Assembly (NCBI GenBank): GCA_023265025.1
Contig: JAHFUP010000010.1
Span: 1-64,000 of the forward strand
Direction: 5' to 3'
DNA from: Acidimicrobiia bacterium
GTDB taxonomy: Bacteria > Actinomycetota > Acidimicrobiia > Acidimicrobiales > AC-14
Length of the DNA: 64,000 nucleotides
Of this stretch, positions 39,164-63,957 are shown piece after piece. The translations under genes and the position numbers were made by a program. Positions within the stretch are counted from its first letter, which is position 1. Each line of letters starts with the position of its first letter. The notes beneath the pieces were generated by a model. The model made no database searches. It saw only the letters and a program-made list of their open reading frames with translations, and was not told the DNA's origin.

Positions 39164-40177
39164 TTACGCCAGCCTGAGGCTGGGCTGGGCCCCGACCTCC
39201 AACGAAGTGGGGCCGTCGGCCCTGTAGCGCCACCAGGCGGCGGCGGCGACCATGGCCGCGTTGTCGGTGCACATCGTCCGGCTGGGGAGGAAGCAGCGCA
39301 GGCCCTCGGCGGTGGCCAGGTCGAGCATGCGCTCGCGCAGCAGGGAGTTGGCGGCCACGCCGCCGCCGATGCAGACGCTCTTGGCGCCGGTTTCGGCCAG
39401 CGCCCGCTTGGTCTTGTCGATCAGCACGTCGACGACCGCGGCCTGGAAGGACGCGGCGATGTCGGCCACCGGCGTCTCGGGGTGAGTCCGCACGTAGCGG
39501 ATCACCGCCGTCTTCAGCCCGCTCAGGGAGAAGTCGAGGCTGTCGGGCATGGCTCGGGGGAACCGGATGGCGGTGGGGTCGCCGGTCAGCGCCACCCGGT
39601 CGATCGCCGGCCCGCCGGGGTAGCCGAGGCCCATGACCCGGGCCACCTTGTCGAACGCCTCGCCCACCGCGTCATCGACGGTGGTGCCCAGCAGCCGGTA
39701 CCGGCCGTGGGCGTCCATGGCCACGAGCATCGTGTGGCCGCCCGACACGAGCAGGACAACCAGCGGCGGCTCGAGGTCGGGCTCCTCCAGGAAGCAGGCA
39801 TAGAGGTGGGCCTCCATGTGGTTCACGCCGACGAAGGGCAGGTTCCACGCCAGGGCGTAGGCCTTCGCCGCGCTGATGCCGACCAGTAGGGCGCCGGCCA
39901 GGCCGGGCCCCACGGTGGCGGCCACGGCGTGGAGCCCGGTCCCGTCGATGCCCGACTCGACCAGGGCCTGGGCGACCGCCGGCGTCAGGAGCTCGACGTG
40001 GGCCCGGCTGGCGATCTCGGGCACGACACCGCCGTAGCGGGCGTGGAGGTCGACCTGGCTCGAGACCACCGAGGACACCACGGTGTCACCGTTGGAGACG
40101 ACGGCGGCGGCGGTCTCGTCGCACGACGTCTCGATCCCGAGGATGAGGAACTGCTCGGGCATCTCCTGCGCGCTCAC
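39164..40177 (-). CDS. tsaD: tRNA t6A synthesis protein TsaD
   Basis: A 337-residue Kae1/TsaD ASKHA ATPase. It has ILGIETSCDETAAAVV, the metal site HMEAHLYACF, GGHTMLVAM, and GGVAANSLLRERM near the end. With TsaB and TsaE it transfers the threonylcarbamoyl group to A37 of ANN-decoding tRNAs. The GTG start lies five bases after the rimI stop, in the conserved order tsaE-tsaB-rimI-tsaD. Confidence 0.96.
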   Translation of the reverse strand: MSAQEMPEQFLILGIETSCDETAAAVVSNGDTVVSSVVSSQVDLHARYGGVVPEIASRAHVELLTPAVAQALVESGIDGTGLHAVAATVGPGLAGALLVGISAAKAYALAWNLPFVGVNHMEAHLYACFLEEPDLEPPLVVLLVSGGHTMLVAMDAHGRYRLLGTTVDDAVGEAFDKVARVMGLGYPGGPAIDRVALTGDPTAIRFPRAMPDSLDFSLSGLKTAVIRYVRTHPETPVADIAASFQAAVVDVLIDKTKRALAETGAKSVCIGGGVAANSLLRERMLDLATAEGLRCFLPSRTMCTDNAAMVAAAAWWRYRADGPTSLEVGAQPSLRLA

Positions 40178-40181
40178 ACGG

Positions 40182-40745
40182 TCACCGTAAACCCTCGCTC
40201 ACCAGGGTCACGCCGGGGATGCCGGCCTCGATCTCGGCCAGGCGCCGGCTGTACTCCGGCGTGTCGACGTCGTGGGCCCACATCACCAGGGCGTCCTCGT
40301 TGGTCTCGACGTAGTAGTTCTTGCGGATGCCGGCGGGGCGGAAGCCGAACCGGCGGTACATCTCCTGGGCCGCGGTGTTCCCCACCCGCACCTCCAGGGT
40401 GAGGTTCGAGGCGCCCCGGCGGATGGCCGTGCGAGCCAGCGTCAGCAGCAATCGGGTCCCGATCTTGTTGCGGTGCCACGCCGGCTCGACCGCCAGCGTC
40501 GTGACGTGGCCGTCGCCCTCGGTGACCATCAGGCCGGCGTAGCCGCAGAGGACGCCGTTGATCCGGGCGACGTAGTAGGCCCGGCTGGTGCGCATGGCCA
40601 TCTCGCTGACGAAGAGGCTGAGCGACCACGGCCGGGCGTAGACCTGGGCCTCGATCTTGAGGACCGACCGCAGGTGGCGCCGGCGCATGGGCAGGATGTG
40701 GACCGTCAGCTGCTCGGGAGCCACCTCGTGCCGGGCCTGCACCAT
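40182..40745 (-). CDS. rimI: Ribosomal-protein-alanine N-acetyltransferase RimI
   Basis: A 187-residue GNAT enzyme. After a basic start (HILPMRRRHLRSVLKIEAQV) come LAVEPAWHRNKIGTRLLLTL (acetyl-CoA loop) and NLTLEVRVGNTAAQEMYRRF, GFRPAGIRKNYY. RimI acetylates the N-terminus of S18 or other proteins and is often linked to tsaB/tsaD. The ATG at 40743-40745 is used; an alternative GTG is the next codon. It is separated from tsaB by a 159-bp inverted-repeat element. Confidence 0.93.
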   Translation of the reverse strand: MVQARHEVAPEQLTVHILPMRRRHLRSVLKIEAQVYARPWSLSLFVSEMAMRTSRAYYVARINGVLCGYAGLMVTEGDGHVTTLAVEPAWHRNKIGTRLLLTLARTAIRRGASNLTLEVRVGNTAAQEMYRRFGFRPAGIRKNYYVETNEDALVMWAHDVDTPEYSRRLAEIEAGIPGVTLVSEGLR

Positions 40746-40747
40746 TA

Positions 40748-40906
40748 GTGCTCCCTCAGGTGACGTCCGCCGCGCTGACGCCGGCCAGGACCGCCGCTGG
40801 CTGCGTTCTCGTCCTCGGCCCACTCACTGTGGGCGTTCGTCCTGCGGCCTTGCCAGCGACGCTCCTGAGTCGCCGTCAGCATCACCGACGCCACCTGAGG
40901 GAGCAC
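40748..40906. repeat. 159-bp element with 20-bp inverted ends (MITE-like or structured RNA)
   Basis: The ends GTGCTCCCTCAGGTGACGTC (40748-40767) and GACGCCACCTGAGGGAGCAC (40887-40906) are complementary at 19 of 20 positions. Inside, further pairs GCTGACG/CGTCAGC, CGCTGGC/GCCAGCG and GCCCAC-tcact-GTGGGC allow one long imperfect hairpin. It fills the tsaB-rimI gap, where the genes are normally adjacent or overlapping. A second small hairpin, CACCTGAG/CTCAGGTG, spans the tsaB stop. No coding frame is convincing. Confidence 0.7.
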
Positions 40907-40907
40907 C

Positions 40908-41612
40908 TCAGGTGGCCCGGTCCATCGCCGCGGTCCAGTTGATCTCGGCGTCGCTCTTGCGCAGGTACAGCGGCTCCAGCTCCCACGGCTGGACGAACTC
41001 CTCCCGCAACGCCTTCGGATGGGCCAGCTCGACGAGCGACGCGGCGGACGGGAACGCCGACGTGGCGTCGCCGGCCTCGGCGCCGGAGACCTCGGTGAGG
41101 ACCTGCGGGTAGCGCACCGCACCGTCGCCGACGACCAGGCAGTCCTCACCGCGGGCCAGGAGCTCGGACGCGAGGTCGTCGGGCGAACCCACCTGGTACG
41201 GCGTCAGGCGCTGAGCGCCACCCGGCACCTGGCGGTAGAAGGAGTAGAAGAGCTCGCCCCGCCGCGCGTCGATGGCCGGGACGATCAGGCGGTTGGTATA
41301 GCGGACCGGGAACGCCAGCAGGTCGAGGCTGGAGATGCCGATGGTCGGAATTCGCAGGGCGTGGGCCAGGGCCTTGGCCGCCGACACGCCGACCCGCAGC
41401 CCACTGAAGAGGCCGGGCCCGACATCGACTGCGATGGCGCTGATCTCGTTCAGGTCGATCTGGGCCTGCCGGCACATGAACTCGATGGCGGGGACCAGCG
41501 TCTCGACGTGGCGCCGGCCCTTGGCCGCATGGAAGCAAGCCAGCACGCCCTCGTGACCGCCGATGGCGCACCCGACCTGGATGGTCGCCGTCTCGATGCC
41601 GAGGATCAGCAC
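40908..41612 (-). CDS. tsaB: tRNA t6A synthesis protein TsaB
   Basis: A 234-residue ASKHA protein. It has LILGIETATIQVGCAIGGHE, the GRRHVETLVPAI segment, and AVDVGPGLFSGLRVGVSAAK. It lacks the metal site of TsaD and dimerises with it. The GTG start follows the tsaE stop by one base. The end lies in the inverted-repeat element. Confidence 0.94.
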   Translation of the reverse strand: MLILGIETATIQVGCAIGGHEGVLACFHAAKGRRHVETLVPAIEFMCRQAQIDLNEISAIAVDVGPGLFSGLRVGVSAAKALAHALRIPTIGISSLDLLAFPVRYTNRLIVPAIDARRGELFYSFYRQVPGGAQRLTPYQVGSPDDLASELLARGEDCLVVGDGAVRYPQVLTEVSGAEAGDATSAFPSAASLVELAHPKALREEFVQPWELEPLYLRKSDAEINWTAAMDRAT

Positions 41613-59664: not shown

Positions 59665-60327
59665 TCATCGTCGCGCCAGACGGCTTTCGATGGCACGCAG
59701 GAGGCGGCGCGTGACCGTGTCGGGGTCGCCCTCGCCGTCGACGGCAGCCAGCCGGTCGGTGGCCAGGTACCAGGCCACGAGGGGGGCGGTCTGCTTGTCG
59801 TACTGCTCAAGCCGCCTGGTGATGACGGCCTCGGTGTCGTCCTCGCGCTGGACGACCGCCCCGCCGCAGGCGTCGCAGGTCCAGTCCTGCCTCGGCGGGG
59901 CATCGACGCTGTAGTTGAGGCCGCAGACGGCGCACACCCGACGGCTGGCGAGGCGCTTCAGGACAACGCCGGTCGGCACGTCGAGCTCGATGACCAGGTC
60001 GACGTGGTGGGGCGACAGCATGTCGTCGAGGGCGTCGGCCTGGGCCACGTTGCGGGGGAAGCCCTCCATCACAAACCCTCGGTCGGCGGCGTCGAGCTCC
60101 TCCAGGCGCTCCCGCACCATCTCGTTCACCACCTCGTCGGGGACCAGGTCACCCGCCTCGACGTACTTCCTGGCCCGGCGCCCGATCTCGGAGTCACCCT
60201 TCATGAACACGCGGAACATGTCGCCGGTCGAGATACGGGGCACGCCGAAGTTCTCGGACAGCCGGATGGCCTGCGTCCCCTTCCCGGCACCCTGCTTGCC
60301 CAGGATGACCAGCCGCGTGGCAAGCAC
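59665..60327 (-). CDS. adk: Adenylate kinase, zinc-LID type
   Basis: A 220-residue kinase. It has VILGKQGAGKGTQAIRL (P-loop), ISTGDMFR (AMP site), MEGFPRNVAQADAL and a long LID with four Cys (132, 135, 151, 154) that bind zinc. It interconverts ATP, ADP and AMP. The GTG start overlaps the secY stop by one base (TAGTG). Its stop lies at the border of repeat copy 6. Confidence 0.96.
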   Translation of the reverse strand: MLATRLVILGKQGAGKGTQAIRLSENFGVPRISTGDMFRVFMKGDSEIGRRARKYVEAGDLVPDEVVNEMVRERLEELDAADRGFVMEGFPRNVAQADALDDMLSPHHVDLVIELDVPTGVVLKRLASRRVCAVCGLNYSVDAPPRQDWTCDACGGAVVQREDDTEAVITRRLEQYDKQTAPLVAWYLATDRLAAVDGEGDPDTVTRRLLRAIESRLARR

Positions 60328-61619
60328 TACGCGAGGAAGCCCTCGTAGTTCCGCATCATCAACTGGCTGTCGATCTGCTTCATCGTCTCCAAGGCCACAC
60401 CCACGGCGATCAGGATGGTGGTGCCACCGAACGGGAACTGCCTGACGCCGTAGAGCGAGAGGAGGATGTTCGGGACCAGGGCGATGGCGGCGAGGAACAG
60501 CGAGCCCGGCAGGGTGATGCGGTTGAGAATCTGCCCCAGGTAGCGCTCGGTGGGGGGCCCGGGCCGGATGCCCGGGATGAAACCACCCTGCTTGCGAATG
60601 ATGTCCGCCTGTTGCTGCGGGTTGAACGTGATGGCCGTGTAGAAGTAGGTGAAGAACACGATCAACAGGCCGTAGGTGAAGATGTAGACGATGTTGTCCT
60701 GCTGCACCAGGTACTTGTTGATGAAGTTCACCACCACGTCCCACTGCACGATGTTGGACAACAGCACCGGGAAGTAGAGGACGGAGCTGGCGAAGATGAT
60801 CGGGATGACGCCGGCCTGGTTGACCTTGAGCGGGATGTAGGTGCTCTGGCCCCCGTACATCCGCCGGCCCACCACCCGCTTGGCGAACTGCACCGGGATG
60901 CGGCGCTGGCCCTGCTCGACGAAGACGATGGCCACGATCATCCCGATGCCCAGGATCATGAACAGGGTGAAGGCGAAGTAGCCCTTCTCGGCCTGGACGT
61001 TGCCGAACTGGGCCGGCATGCGGCTGACCACGTTGGCGAAGATGAGGATCGACATCCCGTTGCCGATTCCCCGCTGGGTGATCAGCTCGCCCATCCACAT
61101 CACGATGGCGGTGCCGGCGGTGATGGTGAGGACGATCAGTGCGACGTGGGGCACGTCGAAGGTGGTCACGAGCTTGAGGTTGGTGTTCGTGCCCTGGCCG
61201 AGGAGCCCGTTGTTGAACTGGTAGGTGATGCCGGTGGCCTGCAGGATGGCGAGGCCGACGGTCATGTACCGGGTCCACTGGGTGATCTTCTTCTGGCCGA
61301 CCGCACCCTGCTTCTGCCACTGCTCGATGCGAGGGATGACCACCGCCAGCAGCTGCATGATGATCGAGCTGGTGATGTACGGCATGATCCCGAGGGCGAA
61401 GACCGCCATCTGGGTGAGCGCCCCGCCGGAGAAGAGGTTCAGGAAGCCCAAGACGCCGCCGCTCTCGGCCTGGCGCTGCAGGTCCTGCACCGCAGCGAAG
61501 TCGATGCCCGGCACCGTGACGTTCGAGCCCAGCCGGTACAGGGTGATGATGGCCAGGGTGAAGAGGATCTTGTTGCGGAGATCCGTGACCTTGTAGATGT
61601 TCTTCAGGCTGGAAAGCAT
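60327..61619 (-). CDS. secY: Preprotein translocase subunit SecY
   Basis: A 430-residue SecY with ten membrane helices. It has LFTLAIITLYRLGSNVTVPG, VVIPRIEQWQKQGAVGQKKI, and QGGFIPGIRPGPPTERYLGQ in the cytoplasmic loop that docks SecA or the ribosome. It forms the SecYEG channel. It lies between rplO and adk as usual. Confidence 0.97.
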   Translation of the reverse strand: MLSSLKNIYKVTDLRNKILFTLAIITLYRLGSNVTVPGIDFAAVQDLQRQAESGGVLGFLNLFSGGALTQMAVFALGIMPYITSSIIMQLLAVVIPRIEQWQKQGAVGQKKITQWTRYMTVGLAILQATGITYQFNNGLLGQGTNTNLKLVTTFDVPHVALIVLTITAGTAIVMWMGELITQRGIGNGMSILIFANVVSRMPAQFGNVQAEKGYFAFTLFMILGIGMIVAIVFVEQGQRRIPVQFAKRVVGRRMYGGQSTYIPLKVNQAGVIPIIFASSVLYFPVLLSNIVQWDVVVNFINKYLVQQDNIVYIFTYGLLIVFFTYFYTAITFNPQQQADIIRKQGGFIPGIRPGPPTERYLGQILNRITLPGSLFLAAIALVPNILLSLYGVRQFPFGGTTILIAVGVALETMKQIDSQLMMRNYEGFLA

Positions 61620-61675
61620 CTAGTCCTCAAGCTTCTCAGTCGGGCTCGGACCGCTCGAAGGTCTCAGAGTAGTGG

Positions 61676-62164
61676 TCAGCGGTTCGTAAGGGCGTTGCCC
61701 TTGGCGGGCGGGCGGCCGTTGCCGAAGGGCGGGGGCAGGACCTCGACGGTACCCCCCGCGGCGACGATCGCGTCCTCAGCCGACTTGGAGAACCCGTGGG
61801 CCGACACCCGAAGGGCTCGGGACAGCTCACCGCGCCCGAGCACCTTGACCAGGCCGTGCTTGTGGACGAGGCCCTTCTCGCGGAGGGTCTCGGGGCTGAC
61901 GACCTCGCCCTCGAACTGCTCCAGCGTGTCCAGGTTGACCACCGCGTACTCCACCCGGAACGGGTTAGTGAAGCCCTTGAGCTTCGGCACCCGCCGGCTC
62001 AGGGGCATCTGGCCACCTTCGAACCCGGGCTTGACCGAGCCGCGGGCGCCCTGGCCCTTGGTGCCCCGGCCGGCGGTCTTGCCGCCCTTGCCGCCGATGC
62101 CGCGACCGACCCGGCGCCGCTCTTTCGTCGACCCGGGGGCCGGCTTCAGGTCGTGGACCTTCAT
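61676..62164 (-). CDS. rplO: Ribosomal protein L15
   Basis: A 162-residue L15. It has [40 protein letters not shown] and [12 protein letters not shown]-like [21 protein letters not shown] late 50S assembly protein. Its ATG overlaps the rpmD stop (ATGA). Confidence 0.97.
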
Positions 62165-62346
62165 TCGGACTCCTCTGCGACGGTGATGAGGTGGCGGACG
62201 TTGGCCAGCATGCCCCGCACGTCGGGGCTGTCGGGCAGGCTCGTCTTGCGGCCGATGCCGCAGAGGCCGAGGGCCTTCATCGTCTTGCGGTGGATCGGCT
62301 TGGTGCCGATCGTGGACTTGACCTGGGTCACGCTGAGGCGGGCCAT
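62161..62346 (-). CDS. rpmD: Ribosomal protein L30
   Basis: A 61-residue L30. It has [40 protein letters not shown] and [14 protein letters not shown]. Its start is one base from the rpsE stop and its end overlaps rplO, so the three are translated as a block. Confidence 0.96.
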
Positions 62347-62347
62347 C

Positions 62348-62896
62348 TCAGGCCACCTCCACCGGGGTGTGGGGGCCGCGCTGGGACTCCTGGTAGGCCT
62401 TGAGCAGCCCGGGAGGGGTGACCTCCTCCGGGGACTTGCCCCGCTTGCGGGCCACCTCGTCGGGCCGCATGAGGCCCTTGAGGCCGGCCACGGTGGCGTG
62501 GGCCACGTTGATGGCGTTCGACGACCCGAGCGACTTGGCCAGGATGTCGTGCACGCCGGCCGACTCCAGGATGGCCCGAGCCGCACCGCCGGCGATCACG
62601 CCGGTACCGGGGGCGGCCGGCTTGAGCAGCACCCGGCCGGCGCCGCGCTCGCCCAGGATGGGGTGGGTGATGGTGCTGCCGGCGAGGGGGACGTCGAAGA
62701 GCTCCTTCTTCGCCTCTTCGATCCCCTTCTGGATGGCGGCCGGCACTTCCTTGGCCTTGCCATAGCCGAGGCCGACCTTGCCGGCGCCGTCGCCGACGAC
62801 CACCAGGGCGGTGAAGGAGAACCGCCGGCCACCCTTGACCACCTTGGCCACGCGGTTGATGGCGATGACGCGTTCTACATACGGGCTTTCAGCCAT
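62348..62896 (-). CDS. rpsE: Ribosomal protein S5
   Basis: A 182-residue S5. It has [40 protein letters not shown] and [20 protein letters not shown]. It helps decoding accuracy. I chose the ATG at 62894-62896 (AGGAG seven bases upstream) over an ATG/GTG five codons earlier. Confidence 0.96.
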
Positions 62897-63055
62897 GTGA
62901 CTCCTGACCACTCATGATCCGCCGGCCGCCGGCACCGCCAAAGGCGGTCCCTTCGGCTGGCGGAGGAAGGAAGAGGGCGTAGGGAGGCCGGCTCCGCCGG
63001 CCGCCCGAAGCGCCTTCAAGCTCGCCGAGCAAGCTCTGCTTGCGAAGGCGAAACA
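62897..63055 (-). repeat. Interspersed intergenic repeat, copy 7 (reverse, diverged)
   Basis: It lies between rplR and rpsE. It keeps GCCGGCCGCCGG near rpsE, the GGCGGAGGAAGGAAGAGGGC segment, and GGCCGGCTCCGCCGGCCG. The rplR-side end is different (CAAGCTCGCCGAGCAAGCTC, a small hairpin), so it is an altered copy. Confidence 0.7.
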
Positions 63056-63421
63056 CTAGAACTCGAGTCCGGCTTCGCGTGCGGCGTCGGCGACTGCGGC
63101 GACGCGGCCGTGGTAGAGGTTGCCGCCCCGGTCGAAGACGACCTTGGTGACGCCGGCGGCCTGGGCCCGCTCCGCGACGAGCTTGCCCACCGAGGCCGCG
63201 GCGGCCTTGTTGCCGGTGGGGCCCGACCGCAGGTCGCCCTCCACGGTGCTGGCCGCGGCCAGCGTGCGGCCGGTGACGTCGTCGATGACCTGGGCGGTGA
63301 CGTGCTTGTTCGACCGGAACACGGCCAGGCGGGGACGCTCGGCGGTGCCGCGGACCTGCTTGCGGACCCGGTGGTGCCGGCGCTTGCGCGCCTCCTGCTT
63401 CTTCTTCGTGGAGAAACTCAC
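63056..63421 (-). CDS. rplR: Ribosomal protein L18
   Basis: A 121-residue L18. It has [40 protein letters not shown] and [20 protein letters not shown]. It binds 5S rRNA. GTG start overlapping the rplF stop (GTGA). Confidence 0.97.
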
Positions 63422-63957
63422 TTGGCGGCCTTCCCTGCCTTGCGACGCACGACTTCGCCGGCGTAGCGGACGCCCTTGCCCTTGTAGGGCTCGGGCTTGC
63501 GGAGACTGCGGATGTTGGCGGCGACCTGGCCGACGGCTTCCTTGTCGATGCCGCGGACGGTGATCTTGGTGGGCGCCGGCGTCTCGAAGGTGATGCCATC
63601 AGGGGCGTCGACGGCGACCGGGTGGCTGAAGCCGAGGGCGATGTCGAGCCTGGACGGCGTGGTGGCCGCGGCCCGGTAGCCGACCCCGACGATCTCCAGA
63701 TCGCGAGTGAAACCGTCGGTGACGCCGACGACCATGTTGTTGACCAGCGAGCGGGTCAGGCCGTGCAGGGCACGGTGCTGGCGCTGGTCACTCGGGCGCT
63801 CCACCAGCAGGACGCCGTCGTCCTGGCGGACGGTGATGTCGCGGGGCAGGTCGCGCTCGAGCGTGCCCTTGGGGCCGCTGACCTTGACGTGCTGCTCGTT
63901 CACCTCGACGGTGACGCCGGCCGGGACCGTGATGGGGCTTCTACCGATTCGTGACAT
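63418..63957 (-). CDS. rplF: Ribosomal protein L6
   Basis: A 179-residue L6. It has [40 protein letters not shown] and the C-terminal [20 protein letters not shown]. It binds near the sarcin-ricin loop. It follows rpsH by nine bases. Confidence 0.97.

Follow-up and report, generated by a model that had tools for sequence, protein, structure and literature searches.

Long palindromic repeats have been described in several groups of bacteria. The ERIC (or IRU) sequences of enterobacteria are 127-bp imperfect palindromes with TA ends, which occur in many copies in transcribed intergenic regions and are thought to be non-autonomous (PMC2229807, PMC10969869). Correia elements (NEMIS) of Neisseria measure ~107-155 bp, have inverted ends with a terminal TA, duplicate their target and form long RNA hairpins (PMC2229807), and they are cut by RNase III (PMC10969869). 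YPAL (RU-2) of Yersinia is a mobile palindrome of 168 bp with empty sites in relatives, and is co-expressed with upstream genes (PMC2229807). A different kind of element, TnRErm46/ISRe46 of Rhodococcus equi (IS481 family), is a 6.9-kb autonomous transposon with 5'-TGTTGCGG ends and an NCTAGN duplication; it targets CTAG, and the duplicated TAG becomes the stop codon of the target gene (PMC6794481). A literature search returned no paper on such repeats in Acidimicrobiia. Here, a family of ~160-bp mobile palindromes that had not been described before is found throughout this class, and a hairpin between tsaB and rimI in the window (the 64-kb stretch of Acidimicrobiia DNA that was analysed, belonging to genome G000) is one of its copies. 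The features of the locus are the following.

40748..40906, no strand: mobile palindrome, copy G000_C52 of the family, GTGC...GCAC (one of four copies in G000; covariance model 142.6 bits; folding z -7.74)
40748..40769, plus strand: left arm tip, a terminal inverted repeat with an AGTGC...-type end (19/20 against the right arm; covarying helix 1)
40885..40906, minus strand: right arm tip, terminal inverted repeat (19/20 against the left arm; covarying helix 1)
40778..40875, no strand: conserved core GCCGGCCAG..GCGTTCTCGTCCTCGG..TTCGTCCTGCGGCCTTGCCAGC..CGCTCCTGA, enclosing a small hairpin at its centre (highest information content among 51 non-redundant copies)
40745..40748, plus strand: target remnant TTAG (CTAA on the gene strand), containing the TAA/ATG overlap of the rimI start (from the sequence and the empty G001 junction, TAATGG)
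40907..40911, plus strand: the other target remnant, diverged, CTCAG (CTGAG on the gene strand), containing the tsaB stop TGA (from the sequence and the empty G002 junction, GGGCCACATAGCGATGGTG)
40908..41612, minus strand: tsaB, the upstream gene, ending at the element (TIGR03725, 169.5 bits)
40182..40745, minus strand: rimI, the downstream gene, starting at the element (TIGR01575, 124.3 bits)
39164..40177, minus strand: tsaD, next in the same cluster (TIGR03723, 421.7 bits)

The initial annotation described 20-bp ends matching at 19 of 20 positions and a single long hairpin, and both descriptions are confirmed: 40748-40767 matches the reverse complement of 40887-40906 at 19/20 positions, and the 159-nt element folds as RNA at -97.1 kcal/mol, against -65.4 +/- 4.1 in dinucleotide shuffles (z -7.74, with 0/200 shuffles equally stable). 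On the minus strand the tsaB stop TGA lies at 40910-40908 and the rimI ATG at 40745-40743, and the element exactly fills the gap. It had also been described as lacking a clear reading frame. In fact the minus strand holds an open frame (40745-40904) that begins at a GTG and ends in a TAA overlapping the rimI start; the other copies do not keep it, so it is probably a chance product of GC-rich DNA. The family does not code for protein, as no reading frame is conserved among copies and lengths are not kept modulo 3, and a coding element like MIRU was accordingly rejected.

The whole G000 assembly (5.45 Mb, 185 contigs) holds four full-length copies, so that the genome search proposed in the initial annotation finds the element to be multi-copy rather than single-copy. 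The three further copies, on contigs C107, C73 and C103, show 81-84% identity; judging from ORF translations, efp-like and nusB-like genes flank the C73 copy, and two glycosyltransferase-like genes the C107 copy. Copies are also present in relatives from the same genus, family and order. A covariance model built from 26 copies (threshold E<=0.001) detects the family in 84/395 Acidimicrobiia genomes and 46/183 genera; in this class-wide survey many genomes have at least 7 candidates each. Copy-bearing genomes are recorded as Acidimicrobiales/Acidimicrobiia MAGs. Elements are ~160 bp long (160-168 bp; 159 in the window) and number from four to dozens per genome. Plasmids, phages and viral contigs were searched with no match to the family.

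One pattern match falls outside the class, in a Firmicutes MAG (Angelakisella, G429). There, two ~275-bp palindromes (L133:1467-1742 and L305:1500-1790) carry the family core and are flanked by TA, and their terminal repeats (TACCTTCC... and TATCGGTG...) differ from those of the family. A separate ~50-bp repeat, GTATCTATGTGCACAGCACCTATACGCC..., adjoins the right flank of copy L158 (G324:C50) and has ~40 matches in G262, G324 and G366.

Mobility is most apparent in the single-contig genome G359, which contains 26 full copies in 1.6 Mb. Fourteen of them show 100% identity to the reference copy and the others 98.8% or more; both orientations occur, and CTAG stands immediately at both sides in 26/26. 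This burst of identical, CTAG-flanked copies indicates that the family was recently mobile. The draft state of the G000 genome is the one point in favour of a chance palindrome or an assembly artefact at a single locus, a reading of negligible probability given the folding z of -7.74, the four copies in G000, the 84 genomes and the 26 full copies in a genome of one contig.

Comparison of orthologous junctions agrees with this mobility. The tsaB-rimI junction lacks the element in the sister species G002 (GGGCCACATAGCGATGGTG) and G001 (TAATGG overlap), and in the other readable relatives the two genes are adjacent without it; the comparison with close relatives suggested in the initial annotation thus yields an empty site. 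Two more empty counterparts were found, for the G002_C128 site in G001 and for the L132 site in three relatives. At efp-nusB, a copy sits at the efp stop codon in G000 (C73) and in G002 (C208) in opposite orientations and is missing from other relatives, reflecting either independent insertions or an inversion.

The sequences flanking the copies point to a short target. CTAG lies on both sides of 41/96 aligned copies. Among the remaining 55, an identical 5-mer stands on both sides of six (CTAAG three times, CTGAG, CTTAG and CTAGG) where 0.6 were expected and at most 3 were seen in 300 shuffles, and a 3-mer test of the same copies gives nine against 2.7 expected; these excesses are somewhat flattered, since the flank offsets were chosen as the best among many. 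The same five letters on both sides of these six copies indicate a target duplication, and in our reading the family inserts at CT(N)AG and duplicates its target. Its length is given as 2-5 bp because CTAG is itself palindromic, which makes TA and CTAG inseparable. Insertion without duplication, by which CT^AG would receive AGTGC...GCACT, is attractive for C73, L132, L152, L162 and L176, whose flanks are unequal, but the CTAAG, CTTAG and CTGAG found on both sides of other copies argue for duplication. The window copy retains just remnants of the duplication, CTAA on the rimI side and CTGAG on the tsaB side. The earlier statement that no target duplication is visible consequently holds for this copy and fails for the family. 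The ends of the palindromes are of the GTGGTGTGTCGTGGG type, with end dinucleotides TG..CA in most copies and GA..TC, GG..CC or CG..CG in some subfamilies.

This target places the copies on stop codons. CTAG is rare, with 18 occurrences in the window against 45 expected (Markov estimate) and 731 in 800 kb of G359 against 1295 expected. When coding frames at the flanks are assigned by GC periodicity, a crude method, 63/105 flanks reading toward a copy have a stop codon at the junction; for strongly coding flanks the stop is exactly at the junction in 46/54, where one third would be expected for a random frame (p 5e-15). In 19 copies the next gene start is also within 5 nt. In G359, 10/26 insertions lie on a stop-codon CTAG, compared with 187/1409 (13%) of all CTAG sites (p 0.001), and 5/26 lie inside predicted genes, compared with 747/1409 sites (p 0.0005), which fits CTAG-specific insertion together with selection against gene disruption. 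Insertions pile up at gene ends because CTAG is rare and is often a TAG stop codon or intergenic.

Taken together, the family is short, multi-copy and non-coding, with terminal inverted repeats, empty sites in relatives, a target-site duplication in copies other than that of the window, and a burst of identical copies in G359. These observations bear out the proposal in the initial annotation that the element is a MITE. Very probably, it is a non-autonomous palindromic element of the MITE kind, moved in trans by a transposase with a CT(N)AG target. Such a transposase would cut CTAG (sometimes CTNAG) and insert the ~160-bp palindrome, leaving CT(N)AG at either side. The TAG copy on the upstream side would preserve the stop codon of the upstream gene, while the copy on the downstream side would preserve the downstream start in TAATG, TGATG or TAGTG overlaps. 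In G000, entry into the tsaB/rimI stop-start junction would most likely have followed the split from G001 and G002.

The arms and core of the element evolve in an unusual manner. Across 98 copies, 90.8% of the cells of the consensus structure are paired, and 584 cells are changed on both sides, against 180 in shuffles and 91-135 in slid controls, in an alignment that was fitted to the model and is biased toward the same structure. In the long terminal stem, 357 cells are changed on both sides and 12 on one side, with G-U pairs nearly absent. Among the 51 non-redundant copies, conservation peaks in the AGTGC tips and the core; the arms vary and stay complementary. In an ordinary MITE the pattern of conservation between ends and core is the reverse. 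A core conserved throughout the class with covarying arms is therefore unusual for a MITE and needs explanation.

A rival to the MITE reading is that the element persists as a structured intercistronic RNA, as raised in the initial annotation; its hairpin would then attenuate, process or stabilise the mRNAs of operons. The strong fold, the compensatory change and the position between co-directional genes favour it, and ERIC and Correia elements provide precedents (PMC10969869). However, orientation relative to genes is balanced (27 vs 24), without strand bias, and the near absence of G-U intermediates in the long stem suggests that the arms are constrained, or correct each other, as DNA rather than as RNA. 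Moreover, no Rfam covariance model matches at the gathering score, the same junctions are empty in sister species, and the identical copies of G359 burst into sites at unrelated genes. As the reason for the existence of the element, a structured RNA is improbable.

A second rival is that mobility depends on the folded single strand, hairpin and conserved core, rather than on the end sequence, much as REP sequences are moved by tyrosine transposases. In its favour, the arms change in concert and, apart from the AGTGC tips, are little constrained in sequence, and conservation of the core extends across the class and to the Firmicutes MAG. Single-ended copies (G051 C1, C25, C81, C115, C166, C176 and C186; L075, L080; G359:180744-180795) also keep the same arm, the left in model orientation, 9 times to 1 (two-sided p 0.02), in what is a small sample. 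The remnant at G359:180744-180795 matches the active copies with 100% identity, as though cut short during insertion. Against recognition of a folded strand, the Y1 transposase domain PF01797 is absent from the copy-bearing genomes G000, G002, G003, G007 and G013 and was present only in G051 among the genomes tested, and a target duplication is unexpected under a REP-like mechanism. This mode of movement is unlikely, and REP/RAYT (Y1) was rejected as the general mover on the missing domain and on the flanks, which have CTAG on both sides and not one GTAG tag. A related and rather unlikely proposition is that the mover recognises mainly the folded shape, so that any pairing arms would do and the conserved core and CTAG target would define the element, possibly in Firmicutes too; if true, a shape-recognised element would represent a new mode of non-autonomous transposition.

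For the movement in trans of a MITE-like palindrome, which remains the preferred reading, the transposase was sought in two genomes. None with matching ends was found in G051, by an end-pattern search, or in 45% of G359 (1.6 Mb). The G051 search yielded ~28 loci, all of them palindromes in full, internally deleted or truncated form, and no long element. In the first 0.8 Mb of G359, long inverted pairs ended by CTAG amount to two weak ones, and the repeated insertion sequences of this genome (1.6 Mb) have ends other than those of the palindrome. A 52-bp match in G359 was rejected as an autonomous partner, being a truncated copy beside unrelated genes.

Another candidate mover is an IS630 (Tc1/mariner-like) element, with insertion at the TA within CTAG. 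Short MITEs and a TA/CTAG target are both typical of IS630 elements. Nonetheless, the corresponding domain, PF13358, occurs in 5/24 genomes, with none in G000, G051, G007, G265, G402 or G327, and the CTAAG, CTTAG and CTGAG duplications conflict with a duplication of TA only. An IS630 origin is thus improbable, and IS630-type DDE_3 was discarded as the mover since it is absent from 19/24 genomes, including most of the copy-rich ones. By analogy with known elements, our best guess is a DDE transposase that would target TA/TNA or CTAG, IS5-like or IS481-like. The IS481-family elements of G359 have ends unlike those of the palindrome; an IS481-derived MITE would be expected to have a CTAG target, as the palindromes do, and TG..CA ends, as most but not all of them do. 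Three of these elements (60114-63868, 517247-521480 and 1468522-1469904) adjoin a sequence resembling a tRNA T-arm, GGTTCGAATCCTGCC, and a tRNA end is a possible target for them. At ~646000-659000 the same genome contains ~1.3-kb repeats in a long array, with stretches of low complexity and short period, for example CCGAAGCAACGCCGACGCCAACCCCACC.

In G000 the 159-nt hairpin now stands between tsaB and rimI; in G001 the stop of the first gene overlaps the start of the second. Once transcribed, it may affect the tsaB-rimI mRNA. Judging from this arrangement, it could mildly weaken the translational coupling of rimI to tsaB, and it could offer a site for RNase III, as in Correia elements (PMC10969869). 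No terminator-like or promoter-like site was detected at the operon locus. Orthologous operon junctions with and without the hairpin constitute ready natural experiments, and the transposase might be caught in genomes like G359, which hold dozens of near-identical copies. In GC-rich DNA, CTAG is often a stop codon; by inserting there and leaving TAG at either side, a selfish element could remain harmless in a compact genome.

Among described systems, the ERIC sequences share with this family a long imperfect palindrome, multiple intergenic copies and a presumed lack of autonomy, but the present ends lie in CT(N)AG, exactly on stop codons, and the hosts are Acidimicrobiia. Correia elements are of similar size, with inverted ends, target duplication and a long hairpin; here, in contrast, the arms vary while still pairing, and conservation lies in the core. 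No sequence relation to ERIC was noted. YPAL is likewise a mobile palindrome of similar size with empty sites in relatives, but its duplications span 3-26 bp, it has no TA ends and it occurs in other hosts (PMC2229807). Within G359, a 968-bp insertion sequence of the IS5 family has copies in CTAAG/CTTAG, with those letters at both sides, as in older copies of the palindrome, and it shares the genome with the recent burst; its ends, GAGCGCGCGCAGATAGG, are unlike those of the palindrome, and it was rejected as the parent. For the target, the published element that comes closest is TnRErm46, an actinobacterial element that also uses CTAG and supplies a TAG stop, though the present family is without TGTTGCGG ends. 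To these systems the Acidimicrobiia palindromes add a class-wide family, a CT(N)AG target with stop-codon placement, an inverted pattern of conservation and the burst of copies in G359.
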